From positions 1 to 23,000 of the IMG/VR virus record IMGVR_UViG_3300048023_000067: a stretch of DNA of 23,000 nt; one strand, written 5' to 3'. The DNA is from a virus. This document shows positions 36 to 10,065 of the stretch, piece by piece. The notes under the pieces are model-generated. The model was not told the DNA's origin, ran no database searches, and saw only the letters and a list, made by a program, of their open reading frames with translations. A program made the translations under genes and the position numbers. Numbering within the stretch: position 1 is the stretch's first letter; every line of letters begins with the position of its first letter.

Positions 36-230
36 ATGGATCCACCCATGGATGAAGATCTAAAAGATTTAATTGCAATGGTGTTTTATGACGATGGCAC
101 AAAGAGTGTGTTTATAAACATCACAGGCTTTCGTAATTCTATACACGGCAGAGATGTGTCCGAGCATATATGCAATCAATTAAATATAGACTTAATGGAT
201 CTATACGGTGATCAGCCAACAGTACACTAA
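36..230 (+). CDS. Hypothetical acidic 64-aa protein upstream of terminase
   Basis: I do not recognise this protein. It is 64 residues, acidic at the N-terminus (MDPPMDEDLKD), with a short mixed alpha/beta-looking middle and no membrane segment or known motif. The ATG at 36 is preferred because AGGA at 27-30 is correctly spaced; an in-frame ATG at 48 is the alternative. The stop codon overlaps the terminase ATG by one base (TAATG), so the two are probably translationally coupled. Position suggests a role near packaging. A small terminase subunit would normally lie here, but those are usually well over 100 residues with a helix-turn-helix, which is not evident. Function unassigned. Confidence 0.75.
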   Translation: MDPPMDEDLKDLIAMVFYDDGTKSVFINITGFRNSIHGRDVSEHICNQLNIDLMDLYGDQPTVH

Positions 231-1510
231 TGCAAATAACAATTCCGTACAGCCCACGAGAGCTGCAACAAGAAATACATACAGAGTTAAGTAAACACAG
301 ATGGGCGGTACTCTCAATTCACAGACGTGCTGGTAAATCTGTTTTATGCATAAATGAATTAATTAAACGAGCTTTAACTAACGATATGTGGAACCCCAGG
401 TACGCATACATCGGCCCGACATACAAACAAACAAAGGCAATTATATTTGACTATTTAAAATTTTATGCCGGTGTCATACCTGGAACCAAATTTAACGAAC
501 AAGAACTAAGCTGCACGTTTGCAAACGGTGCTAAGATTGTATTGCTTGGTTCTGAAAACCCAGACAGTTTAAGGGGTAGTTACTTTGATGGTATCATCTG
601 TGATGAGTACGCACAAATTAATCCACGATTGTTTCCTGAAGTTATCAGACCAGCTCTATCAGATAGAAAAGGTTTTTGTTACTTCGTTGGCACACCCCAA
701 GGAATGTCAAATGATTTCTATGCTAAGTACCAACACGGACTAAAAGATAAAACGTGGTACACAAAAATAGCAAAAGCATCTGAAACAAACATTGTTGATG
801 AAGATGAATTAGAAGCAGCTCTTGAGCTGATGGGTAAGAATAAATACAGACAAGAGTTTGAATGTGACTGGGTAGCAGCATTAGAAGGTGCTATCTATGG
901 TGACGTTATTGAAAAGATAGAAGATCGAAAACAAGTTGGCCGTATACCTTATGATCCAACCTACCAGGTCAGCACAGCATGGGATATTGGCATATCAGAT
1001 AAAACAGTCATTATATTTTTTCAACAAGTAGGCAAAGCCATACACGTTATTGATTATTATGAAAGTAGCAATGAAGGACTGCCCCACTATATTAATTTAA
1101 TTAAAAGCAAAGATTACGTTTACAACAACCATTACGGCCCACACGATTTAGAACAACGTGAGTTTACAAATGGTAAATCAAGACGTGAGATTGCATACGA
1201 GCTAGGCTTACGATTTAAAATTGTACCAAAACTCAGCATAGAAGATGGAATACACTATACACAACTGCTGCTTAACCGTTGTTGGATAGATGTCGATAAC
1301 TGTAAGAAACTGATAGATGCCTTGAGGAACTATCACCGCAAGTTCAATGACACCTTGCAAACTTTTAATTCTAAACCCGTACATGATTGGTCAAGTCATG
1401 CAGCAGATAGCATGAGAGTTTTAGCTGTAGGTTTAGAAGAATTACGAGATGACAATCAGATTAAACAACAAACAGCTGACAACAGCTACAACCCATTAGG
1501 AATACAATGA
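230..1510 (+). CDS. terL: Terminase large subunit
   Basis: This is the DNA-packaging motor: an N-terminal ATPase that pumps DNA through the portal and a C-terminal RNase H-fold nuclease that cuts the concatemer. The Walker A motif is HRRAGKS at residues 31-37. The Walker B motif is DGIICDEYA at 120-128 (Asp125, Glu126), and the coupling motif is GTPQG at 154-158. The nuclease starts with WDIG around Asp252, with a further Asp257, and ends with HDWSSHAAD at 385-393, whose last Asp is the expected C-terminal metal ligand. The length of 426 aa is short for a large terminase but the essential motifs are present. The start overlaps the previous stop by one base, and the end overlaps the next ATG by four (ATGA). 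Its position just before the portal differs from T7, where it follows the fibre genes. Confidence 0.96.
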   Translation: MQITIPYSPRELQQEIHTELSKHRWAVLSIHRRAGKSVLCINELIKRALTNDMWNPRYAYIGPTYKQTKAIIFDYLKFYAGVIPGTKFNEQELSCTFANGAKIVLLGSENPDSLRGSYFDGIICDEYAQINPRLFPEVIRPALSDRKGFCYFVGTPQGMSNDFYAKYQHGLKDKTWYTKIAKASETNIVDEDELEAALELMGKNKYRQEFECDWVAALEGAIYGDVIEKIEDRKQVGRIPYDPTYQVSTAWDIGISDKTVIIFFQQVGKAIHVIDYYESSNEGLPHYINLIKSKDYVYNNHYGPHDLEQREFTNGKSRREIAYELGLRFKIVPKLSIEDGIHYTQLLLNRCWIDVDNCKKLIDALRNYHRKFNDTLQTFNSKPVHDWSSHAADSMRVLAVGLEELRDDNQIKQQTADNSYNPLGIQ

Positions 1511-1704
1511 GTATATTTAAAGCACCAAAAATGCCACCTCCACCAAAACCTAGAGTTATGCTGACACCATCGGGATCGATGGCAAAAGAAGATCCAAAGG
1601 TACAGGAAAAAAGAAGGCGTGGCAAAAAAGCAACCATACTGACATCAAACAGTGGATTAACAAACACCGATGATGATTCATACAAACCATCACTACTAGG
1701 ATAA
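1507..1704 (+). CDS. Small basic protein with C-terminal KPSLLG tail
   Basis: A 65-residue protein with three visible parts: a proline-rich N-terminus (PKMPPPPKPR), a basic cluster followed by a Thr/Ser stretch (KRRRGKKATILTS), and an acidic linker leading to the C-terminal tail YKPSLLG. The Arg/Lys-rich, ATILTS and terminal LLG pattern is familiar from tiny proteins between terminase and portal in many podophages, whose function I do not know. It overlaps the terminase stop by four bases, so it is likely translated by coupling. It shares its tail and general layout with the 1860-2063 protein and its last residues with the 1709-1849 protein. The identity as a gene is fairly secure; a role at the portal or packaging vertex is inference from position. 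Confidence 0.8.
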   Translation: MSIFKAPKMPPPPKPRVMLTPSGSMAKEDPKVQEKRRRGKKATILTSNSGLTNTDDDSYKPSLLG

Positions 1705-1708
1705 CATT

Positions 1709-1849
1709 ATGTCATTATACGAAAACATTAATAAACGTAAAAAAGCTGGTACATCCAGGTCAAAATCAAAATCAACTATTTCTGCAAAATCTTATGCCAA
1801 CATGAAGGCTGGGTTTCCAAAGAAAAAAAAGAAAACACTATTAGGATAA
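1709..1849 (+). CDS. Tiny basic 46-aa protein ending KKTLLG
   Basis: This short reading frame encodes 46 residues and starts with MSLYENINKRKK. It is very rich in Lys, Arg and Ser, contains YANMKAGFPKKKK near the end, and finishes with KKTLLG. It lies exactly between two other small genes, four bases after the first one stops and ten bases before the third starts, and GGA in the preceding gene's last codons can serve as a weak ribosome-binding site. The common ending with its two neighbours, intact reading frame and tight spacing argue that it is real. The high positive charge suggests binding to DNA or an acidic protein surface, but no function is known to me. Confidence 0.75.
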   Translation: MSLYENINKRKKAGTSRSKSKSTISAKSYANMKAGFPKKKKKTLLG

Positions 1850-1859
1850 GGAGAACACT

Positions 1860-2063
1860 ATGAGTGGAATAATCGGAGGTCGTAGGCCAAAAGTCGAAAT
1901 GACTAAAACAAAAGATTTGCAAACGACCAAAACACAAGACATAGCACAAGATGTCCAGGCTGCTAAGAAAAAGAAAAAGCCAGGACAATCTTCATTGATT
2001 GAAACAACATCAATGGGCTTAGGTGGTGATGCACCAACTTACAAGCCAACCCTATTAAGCTAA
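1860..2063 (+). CDS. Small Lys-rich protein with C-terminal YKPTLLS tail
   Basis: A 67-residue protein beginning MSGIIGGRRPKVE, with a polar Thr/Lys/Gln middle, a run of five lysines (KKKKKPG), a hydrophobic/Thr patch (SSLIETTSMGL), an acidic-glycine linker and the tail YKPTLLS. The order of basic cluster, Thr/Ser-rich patch, GL, acidic linker and YKP-S/T-LL tail matches the 65-aa protein at 1507-1704, so the two look like diverged paralogs. A strong ribosome-binding site (AAGGAGA) lies upstream. The identical 15 bases AAGGAGAACACTATG recur at the start of the gene at 3672. The portal gene begins two bases after its stop codon. Function unknown; a partner of the portal or packaging complex is a guess from location. 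Confidence 0.82.
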   Translation: MSGIIGGRRPKVEMTKTKDLQTTKTQDIAQDVQAAKKKKKPGQSSLIETTSMGLGGDAPTYKPTLLS

Positions 2064-2064
2064 T

Positions 2065-3660
2065 ATGAAAAACAAAAACGCAGAAATGCTAGTAGACCGT
2101 TTTGCTACGTTAAGAACAAATCGGTCAACATGGGAAAGTCATTGGCAAGAAATAGCTGATTACATGCTGCCTCGTAAAGCTGACATTACTACACAACGTA
2201 CTCGTGGTGATAAAAGAACTGAGGTTATCTTTGATGGTACGGCTATTCATGCATTAGAACTATTAAGTTCAAGTTTACATGGCATGCTGACTAACGCAGC
2301 TTCACCTTGGTTTACACTTGCATTTAAAAATCCATTGTTATCTGAAAACGATGAAGCTCAAGAATGGTTAGACTCCGTAACGCAAGATATGTACGTTGCA
2401 TTTAACAGATCTAACTTTCAGCAAGAAATACAGGAACTGTATCAAGATCTAATCTCTTTTGGCACATCTGCCATGTTTGTTTCCCCTGATGAAAAAAACC
2501 TAGTACGTTTCAATACGAGACACGTTAAAGAAATATTTATTGCCGAAAATGAAAGAGGACAAGTTGATACAGTCTTTAGACATTTTACATTAAGTGCCAG
2601 GGCTGCTGTTAATTTATTTGGTGAAAAAAATGTAGGTGTAGGCATATTAAATAAATTTAAAAAAGATGTTGATGCAGATGTAAGCATACTGCACGCAGTC
2701 ATGCCACGAGACACATACAACGAAAAGAAAAAAGATACACAGAACATGCCATTTAAGTCATGTTATGTAGATCCTGATGATGTTCACATGATCAGTGAAA
2801 GTGGTTTCAATGAGTTTCCATACGTTGTTCCACGTTATTTAAAAGCTAGTTATGAAATTTATGGAAGATCACCTTCTATGAATGCATTGCCTGACGTAAA
2901 GATGTTGAATAAAATGTCTGAGGTAACAATCAAAGCTGCACAGAAACAAATAGATCCTCCCCTTATGGTTCCTGATGACGGTTTTATGTTACCAGTCAGG
3001 ACAGTGCCAGGTGGTTTAAACTTCTACCGTTCAGGTTCACGAGATCGTATTGAGCCATTACAAATTGGAGCAAACAATCCTGTGACTGTTAACATGATCC
3101 AGGACAGACAACTTGCAATACAAAAAACATTTTATGTCGATCAGTTGCTAACATCACAAGGTGGCAACATGACGGCAACAGAAGTGTTGCAACGTAATGA
3201 AGAAAAAATGAGATTACTAGGCCCAGTCCTAGGTCGATTGCAATCAGAACTATTACAGCCGTTGATTGAACGGGTGTACAATATCTTAGAACGACAAAAC
3301 ATATTCAGACCAGCACCTGAAATATTAGCAGAACAAAATGTTGAGATTGAATATGTAAGTCCACTAGCCAAAGCACAAAAATCAAGTGATCTTAATTCCG
3401 TCATGCGTGGGATTGAAATCTTTGGAGCTATGTCACAATTTGCTCCAGTGCTTGATTATTTGGACTCTGACGGTTTGGCTAAGTATGTGCAAAGTGTTCT
3501 AGGACTACCAGCTAAGATTATGAAATCTGATGCTGAAGTACAACAAGTCAGACAAGAACGGCAACAAGCCGAACAACAAGCAGCAGAACAACAAGAGTTG
3601 ATGCAACAAGCACAAGCAGCGGGTGCAGCAGCTCCTATGGTGAAAGCTGTCAATAACTAA
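2065..3660 (+). CDS. Portal (head-tail connector) protein
   Basis: The dodecameric ring at the head vertex through which DNA is packaged and ejected, and onto which the tail tube is built. The protein matches the T7 gp8 type head-to-tail connector family in overall pattern. The N-terminal region has WESHWQEIADYMLP and the typical FDGTAIHALELLSSSLHGML segment followed by PWFTL. The central wing/stem region includes the P-PLMVPDDGF and YRSGSRDRIEPL elements. A late segment has the TATEVLQRNEEKMRLLGPV helix common to this family. Length of 531 aa is normal for it. The C-terminal 45 residues are Gln/Ala-rich (repeated QQAEQQAAEQQ), probably a flexible or coiled tail. It begins two bases after the preceding stop and is probably read by coupling. 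Confidence 0.94.
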   Translation: MKNKNAEMLVDRFATLRTNRSTWESHWQEIADYMLPRKADITTQRTRGDKRTEVIFDGTAIHALELLSSSLHGMLTNAASPWFTLAFKNPLLSENDEAQEWLDSVTQDMYVAFNRSNFQQEIQELYQDLISFGTSAMFVSPDEKNLVRFNTRHVKEIFIAENERGQVDTVFRHFTLSARAAVNLFGEKNVGVGILNKFKKDVDADVSILHAVMPRDTYNEKKKDTQNMPFKSCYVDPDDVHMISESGFNEFPYVVPRYLKASYEIYGRSPSMNALPDVKMLNKMSEVTIKAAQKQIDPPLMVPDDGFMLPVRTVPGGLNFYRSGSRDRIEPLQIGANNPVTVNMIQDRQLAIQKTFYVDQLLTSQGGNMTATEVLQRNEEKMRLLGPVLGRLQSELLQPLIERVYNILERQNIFRPAPEILAEQNVEIEYVSPLAKAQKSSDLNSVMRGIEIFGAMSQFAPVLDYLDSDGLAKYVQSVLGLPAKIMKSDAEVQQVRQERQQAEQQAAEQQELMQQAQAAGAAAPMVKAVNN

Positions 3661-6433: not shown

Positions 6434-7000
6434 ATGAGTTCACAAGTCGATATTTGTAATGGAGCATTAAACCAATTAGGGGCTTCAACAATTATAAGTC
6501 TGTCAGATGACAGCAAAAATGCACGAATGTTAAATCAACGATACGACATGGTAAGAGATCGTGTGTTTCGTGAACATCCGTGGAATTGTTTATTAAAACG
6601 AGTCAGTATTGCAGCTGACGCAACAGCACCAACGTATGAGTATTCGTATGCTTATACATTGCCAGCTGATTGTCTAAGAGTGCTACAAACATTTGAAATG
6701 AGAGATGATGTCGATTTTAAAGTAGAAGGAAGAAAAATTTTAACAGATGCCACAACAATGAAAATTTTATATGTGGCAAAAATTACTGACACCACACAAT
6801 ACGATACAAGTTTAGTAGAGACATTAACAGCTGCACTTGCAGCTGATATTGCATACGGCATAACTGGATCAACAACAATGATTCAGATTATGGAAGAACG
6901 ATACAAAGAGAAATTAAAAGATGCACGATTTGCAGATGCTACCGAAGGTATGCCAGATGAAATTGATGCAGACTTTCCATTTATTGCATCGAGGTTTTAA
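6434..7000 (+). CDS. Tail tubular protein A (gp11-like adaptor)
   Basis: The 188-aa gatekeeper/adaptor ring that binds below the portal and closes the head. The N-terminus carries ICNGALNQLGASTIISLSDD and a downstream element MVRDRVFREHPWNCLLKR. Then comes a long stretch with YEYSYAYTLPADCLRVL, and a C-terminal helical region including the pattern ALAADIAYGITGS. This set (D-CN-AL-LGA, R-HPWN-A-KR, Y-Y-LP-DCLRVL) is that of T7 gp11-type tail tubular A proteins. The stop codon overlaps the next ATG by one base, as is usual for the A/B pair. Confidence 0.93.
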   Translation: MSSQVDICNGALNQLGASTIISLSDDSKNARMLNQRYDMVRDRVFREHPWNCLLKRVSIAADATAPTYEYSYAYTLPADCLRVLQTFEMRDDVDFKVEGRKILTDATTMKILYVAKITDTTQYDTSLVETLTAALAADIAYGITGSTTMIQIMEERYKEKLKDARFADATEGMPDEIDADFPFIASRF

Positions 7001-10000
7001 TGGCAAGATCAGCCTATCCGTACACCAGTTTTACTGGTGGTGAATTATCAGATCAGTTAGATGGTCGTATAGATTTAGATAAGTACAAAGTTGGATGTAA
7101 GACAGTTGAAAACATGATTGTCTATCCACATGGTACTGCTGCTAGACGGCCAGGCACTAAATTTATTGCCGAGGCTAATCAAACTATTGTTGATGGCAGA
7201 GCATATAGATTGATACCGTTTGAATTTTCAACAACACAAACGTATGTGCTTGAATTTGGTGATCAATATGTACGTTTTTTTAAAGACAACGGCATTATTA
7301 CAAAAACTGGTATTAATATATCAGGCATTACCAAAGCCAATCCAGGTGTAGTGACATCTGCTACACACGGATTATCAGCTGGAGATTATGTTATATTAGA
7401 TGGTATAGTTGGCATGACAGAATTAAATGGCCGACAATTTAGAGTTGGTACAGTGCCGTCATCTACAACTTTTAATTTAAAATCAACAGATGGAACTGAT
7501 TTTAATACATCAGCATTAACAACGTATGCATCGGGAGGTGTTGTCTATCCAATATATCAAATTGCATCTCCATACGGTTTTGACTCATTGCCTGATTTAA
7601 AATACGCACAATCAGCTGATGTTCTATACATTACACACCCTAGTTTTCCAATCCGTAAACTATCACGAACTGCACACACATCATGGTCATTTTCAACACC
7701 AACATTAACAACGGGAACTGATTTTATTGTATCAGGCATCACACAAGCTAATCCTGGAGTTGTATCAACTATTTTAGATAATGGTTTACGCAAAGGTGAT
7801 TTTGTTACATTTGCAAACATCGGTGGAATGACACAATTTAACGGTGGTGTTTTTAAAGTTGGGGAACAAAAAAATAAAATTACTATTAGTGGCATTACAA
7901 AAGCTAATCCTGGTGTAGTTACGACATCAGCAGCTCATGGATTAATAGCTGGTGATAGTTTTGATATTTCAGATGTTGTTGGTATGACACAACTAAATGG
8001 TAATTCATTTAAAGTTGGAACCGTGCCATCTACAACTACATTTCAATTGCAAAACGGCAACGGCATTAATATTGATACAACTGATTACACAACATTTGTT
8101 TCAGGTACATTAACTGGCCCTGATCAACATTTTGAAATACAAGACAGCACTGGCACTAATGTTGATACATCAGGTTATAGTTCATTTAGTGGATCAACGG
8201 GTACTGTTACAAAACTAAACAATCCAGTTTTAAATTTAGGTACAGATAATTATCCATCTTGCGTATCGTTCTTTGAACAACGTCTTGCATTTGCTGGCAC
8301 AAACAATAATCCTCAAACATTGTGGTTGTCACAATCTGGTGATTACGAAAACTTTACAGAAGGTACAGATGCAGATGATGCAATGAACTTTACCATTGCT
8401 AGTAACAAAGTGAATGCCATACGTTATTTAGCTGCATCACGATCATTATTAATTGGCACAACGGGTGCAGAATTTTTAGTAACAGGATCAGATAGTGTTA
8501 ATGGACTATCCCCTACTAACATTAATATTCGTAAACAATCAGCATACGGCAGTGCCAACAAAGATGCTATTACAGTTGGCAATCTTGTGTTGTTTATACA
8601 TCGTGCCAAACGCAAGATACGAGAGCTAACATATAACTACGATAGTGATAACTACATTGCACCTGATCTTACGGTTCTTGCTGACCACATAACTGAAAGC
8701 CTGGTTGTTGACTTTGCATACCAACAAGAGCCAGCTTCTATTTTATGGGTTGTGCGTACTGATGGTGTGTTAGCTGGACTGACATATCAACGTACAGAAA
8801 ATGTTATAGCCTGGCATCGACATATTCTTGGAGGATATTCAGATACTGGCAAAACAACAACGACACAAAAATTAAGTTTTACATCAGTTGATACTGGTGA
8901 AAATACAATTGCCATAAGTTCACATGGATTATCAACGGGTGATCCAGTAACGTATTACACAACTGAAACACCAGTTGGAGGTTTATCACAAGGTATATTT
9001 TATTTTGTAATTGTTGTTGATGCTAACAATATTAAATTAGCATTGACCCCTGAAGATGCTACAGCTGGCACGCCAGTCATAGATATTACATCAGGTGCTG
9101 GTAGCAAAACGCATTATATTTATTTAGGTTTTAATAAATCTAACAATGTATTTTATGCAACTGGTCATGGTTTTGGTGAAGATGAAGAAATTTATTATTA
9201 TCCAACAAATGACACACACAAACTTACTAACTTAAATAAAAATGTACCATACATAGTTGATCCTATAACTAATTATAGTTTTCGATTAAAAAACAAATTT
9301 GTATTTAAAGATTATCAAACTGCTGGTGTTAATTATCAAATACGAGATTATTTAGATCCTGGAACAGTTAGCACAACAAAGACAACTCACAAATGGTTGA
9401 CACATGCAAAAGTAAAAACAATTGCAACAATACCAACTGAGAATGCAGAAGATGAATTGTATATGATTGTTGAACGATACATCAACGGTGCAACAGTTCA
9501 TTATGTAGAATTTTTAACACCATTTGATTACGGCAATGATGACGAGGATGCATTCTTTCTTGATAGTGGTTTGACGTATGATGGCAGCAAAACATTAACT
9601 ATAACCAGGCTGCATCATTTAGAAGGTGAATTGTGTAATGTGTTAAACAACGGTGCAACTCACACTGATGAAACAGTGGCATCAGGTAACATAACATTAG
9701 ATGATCATGGTGAAAAAGTGCATGTTGGATTGCAATATGACTCAATTTTGGAAACCATGAGAATAGAATCAGGATCACAAGATGGAACAGCCCAGGGCAA
9801 AACAAAACGTATTCATGGAGTAACAGTAAGAGTAGATCGGTCTATGGGTGGATCAGTTGGGCCTAACTTACAAAATTTAGAATTATTAACGTACCGTACT
9901 TCAGCATTACCATTGACATCATCTATACCCTATTACACTGGTGATAAAGATGTTGAGTTCCGTGGTGATTATGAAACAGATGGACATATAGTTGTAAAAC

Positions 10001-10065
10001 AAGAACAACCATTACCATTAAATGTTGTGGCACTGTTCCCTCGATTAAATACATTTGATGGTTGA
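7000..10065 (+). CDS. Tail tubular protein B (gp12-like nozzle) with inserted repeats
   Basis: The nozzle of the short tail, which the fibres attach to and DNA leaves through. The N-terminal 55 residues are diagnostic (SFTGGELSDQLDGRIDLDKY, then VYPHGTAARRPGTKF), as is a C-terminal half with LAFAGTNNNPQTLWLSQSGD and a repeated MNFTIAS/VNAIRYL set. T7 gp12 is about 800 residues, whereas this protein is 1021 residues. Part of the difference is explained by three copies of an FCCH-like repeat (SGITKANPGVVT...HGL-AGD...GMT-LNG-F-VGTVPS-TTF) from about residue 107 to about 370. A second beta-rich insert lies at roughly residues 620-780, with two HGL-GD / HGFGEDEEI motifs. The gene end overlaps the next start. 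Confidence 0.93.
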   Translation: MARSAYPYTSFTGGELSDQLDGRIDLDKYKVGCKTVENMIVYPHGTAARRPGTKFIAEANQTIVDGRAYRLIPFEFSTTQTYVLEFGDQYVRFFKDNGIITKTGINISGITKANPGVVTSATHGLSAGDYVILDGIVGMTELNGRQFRVGTVPSSTTFNLKSTDGTDFNTSALTTYASGGVVYPIYQIASPYGFDSLPDLKYAQSADVLYITHPSFPIRKLSRTAHTSWSFSTPTLTTGTDFIVSGITQANPGVVSTILDNGLRKGDFVTFANIGGMTQFNGGVFKVGEQKNKITISGITKANPGVVTTSAAHGLIAGDSFDISDVVGMTQLNGNSFKVGTVPSTTTFQLQNGNGINIDTTDYTTFVSGTLTGPDQHFEIQDSTGTNVDTSGYSSFSGSTGTVTKLNNPVLNLGTDNYPSCVSFFEQRLAFAGTNNNPQTLWLSQSGDYENFTEGTDADDAMNFTIASNKVNAIRYLAASRSLLIGTTGAEFLVTGSDSVNGLSPTNINIRKQSAYGSANKDAITVGNLVLFIHRAKRKIRELTYNYDSDNYIAPDLTVLADHITESLVVDFAYQQEPASILWVVRTDGVLAGLTYQRTENVIAWHRHILGGYSDTGKTTTTQKLSFTSVDTGENTIAISSHGLSTGDPVTYYTTETPVGGLSQGIFYFVIVVDANNIKLALTPEDATAGTPVIDITSGAGSKTHYIYLGFNKSNNVFYATGHGFGEDEEIYYYPTNDTHKLTNLNKNVPYIVDPITNYSFRLKNKFVFKDYQTAGVNYQIRDYLDPGTVSTTKTTHKWLTHAKVKTIATIPTENAEDELYMIVERYINGATVHYVEFLTPFDYGNDDEDAFFLDSGLTYDGSKTLTITRLHHLEGELCNVLNNGATHTDETVASGNITLDDHGEKVHVGLQYDSILETMRIESGSQDGTAQGKTKRIHGVTVRVDRSMGGSVGPNLQNLELLTYRTSALPLTSSIPYYTGDKDVEFRGDYETDGHIVVKQEQPLPLNVVALFPRLNTFDG
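7315..8215 (+). repeat. Three FCCH-like repeats inside the tail tubular B gene
   Basis: Protein repeats starting at residues 107 (ISGITKANPGVVTS), 245 (SGITQANPGVVS) and 296 (ISGITKANPGVVTT). Each is followed within 15-35 residues by a Gly-Asp turn, then GMT-LNG or GMTQFNG and VG. The first and third also share VGTVPSSTTF / VGTVPSTTTF and a D-T-Y-T-F/A-SG end. A shorter echo occurs near residues 375-400 (NVDTSGYSSFSGSTG). These resemble the FCCH beta domain first named in ubiquitin-activating enzymes, which recurs in phage tail proteins. The extent is a by-eye alignment. Confidence 0.82.

Follow-up and report, generated by a model that had tools for sequence, protein, structure and literature searches.

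A modular C-terminal tail on small proteins encoded between the terminase and portal genes of podophages, a candidate virion docking tag

Three consecutive small genes between the terminase and portal genes of a podophage encode proteins, here called P1, P2 and P3, that close with one short C-terminal tail, and across related phages this tail is a module that occurs on unrelated proteins and depends on its genomic context. The tail is probably a docking tag, whatever its partner. By analogy with phage T7 we give a probability of about 0.5 to a more specific reading, in which it is a virion docking tag, P1 and P3 resemble T7 gp6.7 and gp7.3, P2 is a passenger, and all three would be seated in the channel of the portal and tail.

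The three genes and their surroundings

The window (the whole 23 kb stretch of DNA analysed, from an IMG/VR virus record) has a podophage gene layout, and profile matches give the order TerL, the three small genes, PF12236 portal, a Bbp19-like gene (PF25181), a scaffold-like gene, PF19821 coat, a decoration-like gene, adaptor and nozzle. By portal sequence the closest isolates belong to the HTVC010P group of pelagiphages (about 60–63% identity). A preliminary description made from the sequence had placed three ORFs starting at 1507, 1709 and 1860 between TerL and portal, with the endings YKPSLLG, KKTLLG and YKPTLLS, and they are exactly as described. The features discussed below are:

230..1510, + strand: TerL, the upstream border of the interval (profile searches)
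1507..1704, + strand: P1, 65 aa, a type A phrog_831-family protein ending ...DDSYKPSLLG (ORF; phrog_831 match; P3 paralogue)
1621..1659, + strand: P1 core motif GKKATILTSNSGL, the first of the two parts of the C-terminal motif (conservation across aligned relatives)
1681..1701, + strand: P1 tail YKPSLLG (sequence; survey of relatives; alignment)
1709..1849, + strand: P2, 46 aa, phrog_25774 family with an apparently grafted tail, ending ...KKKKKTLLG (profile match; composition; relatives stop before the tail)
1829..1846, + strand: P2 tail KKTLLG (missing from Syn5 gp59, HTVC028P gp48 and HTVC021P gp36)
1860..2063, + strand: P3, 67 aa, phrog_831-related, in the portal-adjoining slot (type B position), ending ...PTYKPTLLS (profile matches)
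1983..2027, + strand: P3 core motif GQSSLIETTSMGLGG, in the register of the T7 gp7.3 nozzle-docking loop (the type B profile reaches significance, the P3 subset by itself does not)
2040..2060, + strand: P3 tail YKPTLLS (sequence; survey of relatives)
2065..3660, + strand: portal, PF12236 Head-tail_con, the downstream border and a candidate partner (PF12236 E 6.5e-151; PDB relative 8ck0 E 6.5e-91)
6434..7000, + strand: tail adaptor (tail tube A type), a candidate partner (phrog_394 E 2.7e-55)
7000..10065, + strand: tail nozzle, the first-choice candidate partner (phrog_376 E 2.2e-194; PDB relative 8ck1 'Tail Nozzle' E 2e-92)

P1 consists of a PKMPPPP N-terminus, a basic patch, the core motif, an acidic linker and the tail; P2 is very basic, with 14 K/R and 1 D/E; and the end of P3 is 1 base from the start of the portal gene. 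Only 4 of the 152 window ORFs of at least 30 aa have an ending of the form L[LMI][GS]x0-1, namely P1, P2, P3 and a short ORF on the minus strand. Inserts that recur in the nozzle protein (ITISGITKANPGVVT...) match a domain of the eukaryotic ubiquitin-activating enzyme E1 (best E 3.2e-6).

Two gene families

In profile searches against PHROGs v4, P1 matches phrog_831 over residues 3–65 (E 1.4e-7) and P3 matches it weakly (E 0.013); of the 15 relatives that were aligned, 11 match this family too. Homology between P1 and P3 extends over their length (BLASTP E 9e-5; profile comparison E 3.5e-11), the P3 profile matching type A at the latter value and type B, the last gene before the portal in relatives, at E 4.3e-12. 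By these comparisons the two are paralogues that arose by duplication, which rules out their independent convergence, so that their common tail and common order of patches reflect common descent and are not two independent cases. The earlier picture of three separate proteins with one ending thus holds for P2 and does not hold for P1 and P3, whose identical patch order, correctly described, is inherited.

The P2 body is unrelated to that of P1 (shuffle p 0.87), and its weak resemblance to P3 (shuffle p 0.054) includes the common ending and runs of K. P2 is therefore the one telling case inside the window, and it is its tail that needs explaining. It does not match phrog_831 in profile searches and instead matches phrog_25774 over residues 1–42 (E 6e-25), a basic module found in 34 phage records from pelagiphages, Syn5, P60, roseophages and Methylophilales phages. 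Homology of P2 to these relatives usually stops before the KKTLLG tail; the module in Syn5 gp59 and HTVC028P gp48 has the same body as P2 (about 90% identity to Syn5 gp59 over 37 residues), and members elsewhere lack the KTLLG tail. This 37-residue body is about 80–90% identical across Synechococcus podophages, pelagiphages and others (related loci L084, L097 etc.), unusually conserved for so small a protein, and the conservation is suggestive of either recent exchange or strong constraint.

No fold is predicted for P1 (mean pLDDT 64, pTM 0.16, from a seven-sequence alignment). Pfam searches gave no match for P1, P2 or P3; PDB sequence searches with P1, epsilon15 gp3 and the family profile gave nothing meaningful; and tblastn with P1 and P3 matched no phage record, because the family is short and divergent.

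Both families are already catalogued. phrog_831 includes epsilon15 gp3, HTVC010P gp03/gp04 and similar proteins, the Bbp22-type proteins share its C-terminal motif, and its members have the same slot as P1 and P3, as the first or second gene ahead of a PF12236 portal; the difference is that these proteins have been catalogued one by one, and a tail common to unrelated neighbours was not noted. The suggestion that the three genes are an undescribed system must accordingly be narrowed, since the families (phrog_831 for P1 and P3, phrog_25774 for P2) were on record without a function; what survives of it is the shared tail, as the searchable literature, which covers few subscription papers, yielded no account of a transferable C-terminal tag shared by genes in this slot.

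The two-part motif in related phages

P1 and P3 have a C-terminal motif in two parts, GRxSTILTG..G...KTLLGx, of which the tail forms the second. In epsilon15 and BPP-1 the gene just before the portal carries it: gp3 of epsilon15 ends ..GRSSTLLTGAQGDTSTANTSGKTLLGQ and Bbp22 of BPP-1 ends ..GQSGTMLTGPQGVDQSALTLGKSTLLGQ. The motif is also found in HTVC010P gp03/gp04, Pseudomonas Ab31 ORF03, PfDIW6 gp03 and Xanthomonas 10KY502B, with looser versions in Piluca and a Nostoc phage; judged from this distribution of sequences, it is old and widespread.

A survey for K/P-S/T-LL-G endings in short ORFs between terL and portal had been proposed, and it bore the idea out: among 205 related loci in which both terL and a PF12236-like portal were found, an LLG-type ending closes 372 of 702 ORFs in the terL–portal interval versus 1 of 776 downstream of the portal (ATG ORFs of at least 50 aa from the same loci). 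The 702 include spurious frames, which lowers the apparent tailed fraction, and many loci are close relatives from sets chosen by similarity to the query. Sharing of the ending far exceeds what chance would give. Applied to HTVC010P and epsilon15, a related tail pattern selects the terL–portal genes and otherwise only short ORFs, probably by chance, and some genomes have six tailed genes. VP2 (whole genome examined) and ZP6 have related portals yet lack such interval genes, so these phages either dispense with the function or have replaced it.

A tail shared by unrelated proteins

The tail is found on at least eight unrelated bodies in this phage group. These include phrog_831, the ENINKRK and YANIHAKRKR families, a DFALLRKK protein with an EF-hand-like loop, the MPYGxGTYGS and MYGDKxKITRGD proteins, a TSVADTTGAGSTLLG protein, and DUF6321 in L100. 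A tailed 38–43 aa protein (KGKQKKIDANNNNKIDAQDFALLRKK) in the terL–portal interval of L005, L008, L012 and relatives has an EF-hand/dockerin-like calcium loop, whose match to Dockerin_1 (E 0.0017) is below the curated cut-off. In the intervals of L001–L055, untailed basic mini-genes (the DUF6321 family and a MAKELTKRQ..KTLKKHS family) are shuffled as cassettes among tailed ones, and only in L100 does DUF6321 have a KTLVG tail.

Presence of the tail follows the neighbourhood. In the two passenger families with good sampling, ENINKRK proteins are tailed in 8 of 12 cases with a phrog_831-type gene within 2.5 kb and in 2 of 67 without one, and YANIH proteins in 31 of 31 and 1 of 66, respectively. 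At loci without a PF12236-like portal the tail is found in 0 of 55 (ENINKRK) and 0 of 49 (YANIH) by a strict pattern that scores the S-type tails of L192 and L151 as absent. The association is not complete, since the tail is missing from four P2 relatives near a phrog_831-type gene and from some P2 relatives between terL and portal, and strict dependence on position can be rejected: three unrelated genes with KTL[VI]G tails lie between the decoration and adaptor genes in L100, and the L192/L247 group has K-S-[LM]-M-type tails on unrelated passengers directly before terL. Within a genome the tails of unrelated genes agree more often than expected (0.84 versus 0.71, permutation p 0.0026, in ten distinct genomes with at least two tailed passengers), and in each genome the tail seems co-adapted with some other component.

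A tree of P2-family bodies, weakly resolved from few columns, requires nine tail changes, at least four of them forced by well-supported branches, and the identical bodies of L192 and L227 differ in tail; on this evidence the tail is repeatedly gained or lost. GGA encodes its Gly in 180 of 307 distinct tails, Ser endings draw on both codon boxes, and the Gly is often not the last residue. This variety of codons indicates selection on the protein. Neighbour dependence, within-genome agreement, varied codons and repeated gain and loss together support a selected linear docking motif, much as the preliminary description had supposed in proposing a motif that docks on a common partner; the occurrence of particular bodies in both tailed and untailed forms points the same way. 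Neither reduction to one gene nor tail loss among relatives speaks against it, for epsilon15 and BPP-1 keep one gene, with its tail, and tail loss follows context.

Comparison with T7 and a proposed function

In T7 the genes for gp6.7 and gp7.3 lie just ahead of the portal gene, and the proteins are located on the portal barrel and at the adaptor–nozzle junction until they leave the virion at infection; the nozzle anchors six copies of the gp7.3 C-terminal loop (residues 84–98), whose residues K84/K85 lie on the DNA end (PMC11784390). The T7 gene order is 6.7-7-7.3-7.7-8. Beyond the close relatives of T7, orthologues of the two proteins are difficult to recognise. Similar roles have been suggested by the authors of the Peru-2 study for small ORFs just upstream of the portal gene, although orthologues are not readily identifiable in Peru-2 or ICP3, perhaps having no recognisable sequence motifs (PMC13320782).

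Like P1 and P3, the T7 proteins are small and basic and occupy the slot just upstream of the portal. Type B proteins have a K-rich N-terminus, a long linker, an acidic stretch and then KKxGRKSL.TSS.GLGG, an arrangement resembling the K-rich start, acidic stretch and GKKSL..SSGGG loop of gp7.3, and the type B profile aligns with gp7.3 over that C-terminal loop at E 9.4e-5 and 59% probability, a moderate match. The P3 subset profile takes the same register without reaching significance, and the Pfam family of gp7.3 (PF11653, VirionAssem_T7, phrog_1320) has no match in P1, P2 or P3. Unlike the proteins described here, gp7.3 lacks an LLG end, so that the part matching T7 is the core motif and not the tail. 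For gp6.7 (PF17570) there is no Pfam match in P1–P3, and the comparison with the type A profile is not significant (E 0.12), leaving P1 unsupported as a gp6.7 homologue; type A shares with it a PKxPxP start only. The end of gp6.7 resembles the motif only by a hand-made pattern written with T7 in view, which hits 2 of 21,046 control ORFs and is suggestive only. T7 gp6.7 and gp7.3 (L418) themselves have a common short patch G[GR]K..L.V (GRKGLKV / GGKKSLSV), possibly a parallel to the shared motif here. In ctEw122 an acetyltransferase gene before the tailed genes resembles T7 gp7 (E 0.0027), a weak parallel given that acetyltransferases occur elsewhere in these genomes.

The common slot before the portal, the type B match to the nozzle-docking loop and the absence of a predicted fold in P1 suggest a role like that of gp6.7 and gp7.3, and we put the chance that P1 and P3 work in this way at about even. 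The T7 case points to the channel of nozzle, adaptor and portal rather than to TerL or coat as the partner. P1 and P3, related by duplication, would be small and mostly unfolded virion proteins that are synthesised beside the portal and take their place in or on the portal–adaptor–nozzle channel during assembly, their basic patches probably touching the DNA end, and they would be the first out at infection. The contact would be the two-part C-terminal motif (GRxSTILT..G plus K-[TS]-L-L-G), its LLG part binding nozzle, adaptor or portal, and P2 would be a basic passenger that gained the tail and was hence brought to the site of P1 and P3. More tentatively, podophages with PF12236 portals may have a C-terminal sorting code in which a genome-specific K-[TS]-[LM]-[LMVI]-[GS] tag fits one site in the portal–tail channel and loads interchangeable small basic proteins from a pool shared among marine phages, so that the virion would hold several unrelated proteins and release them before the DNA.

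We rate as new the putative targeting tail shared with unrelated passengers, beside portal-side proteins of the gp6.7 and gp7.3 sort. With the motif, candidates of that type could be sought by sequence in abundant marine phages, epsilon15, BPP-1 and Pseudomonas phages, and a tag that does send proteins into virions would offer a simple rule predicting which mini-proteins a phage injects and possibly a cargo tag for engineering.

Alternative explanations

One short terminal peptide common to several proteins brings them into one assembly in the case of the T4 capsid targeting sequence and of encapsulin cargo peptides, the T4 sequence being N-terminal and cleaved whereas the tail here is C-terminal; encapsulin cargo peptides are not known to be linked to phage tails. 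The tail might similarly be an encapsidation signal for scaffold or coat that takes small basic internal proteins into the procapsid and leaves the tail channel untouched. The tailed proteins are basic and DNA-binding in character, the L100 genes lie between decoration and adaptor, and HTVC021P gp36, an untailed P2 relative, is encoded between scaffold and coat; but the commonest place of tailed genes is next to the portal and the core motif matches the T7 nozzle-docking loop, and we think this explanation unlikely. Less likely still, the tail would attach small basic proteins to the packaging motor (TerL or the portal clip) for packaging only, as accessory or small-terminase-type factors. The genes adjoin terL, the tailed L192/L247 passengers directly precede it, and so does Syn5 gp59, an untailed P2 relative; such untailed relatives beside terL indicate, however, that this neighbourhood does not need the tail, and VP2 and ZP6 package DNA without these genes.

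A C-terminal degradation signal that times removal of the proteins seems very improbable. ClpX signals of the MuA type have basic residues followed by a hydrophobic end, and the K/R-rich, then hydrophobic C-terminus resembles them. T7 gp6.7 and gp7.3 are indeed degraded by host proteases after ejection (PMC11784390), but a general degron would not track phrog_831-type neighbours or agree within genomes, and the two-part motif is longer than a degron. The least probable explanation is an ending without function, owed to the common descent of P1 and P3 and to a DNA-level effect in which ...TTAGGATAAGGAG supplies the ribosome site of the next gene: P1 and P3 are paralogues and P1 ends CTAGGATAACATTATG, a usable ribosome site, yet the unrelated bodies (P2 and at least seven others) and the codon variety given above largely rule out such an artefact.

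Annotation of the interval in relatives

PfDIW6 gp03 (NC_070881, 2026–2379; L091) carries the annotation 'portal protein', but it is a small protein of 117 aa with an LLG tail, and gp04 is the actual portal. HTVC010P (NC_020481; L081) has an unannotated gap at about 2438–2640, between gp03 and gp04, where relatives such as L258 have an ORF of 55–69 aa ending KSSLTFGE, possibly a weakened form of the tail.
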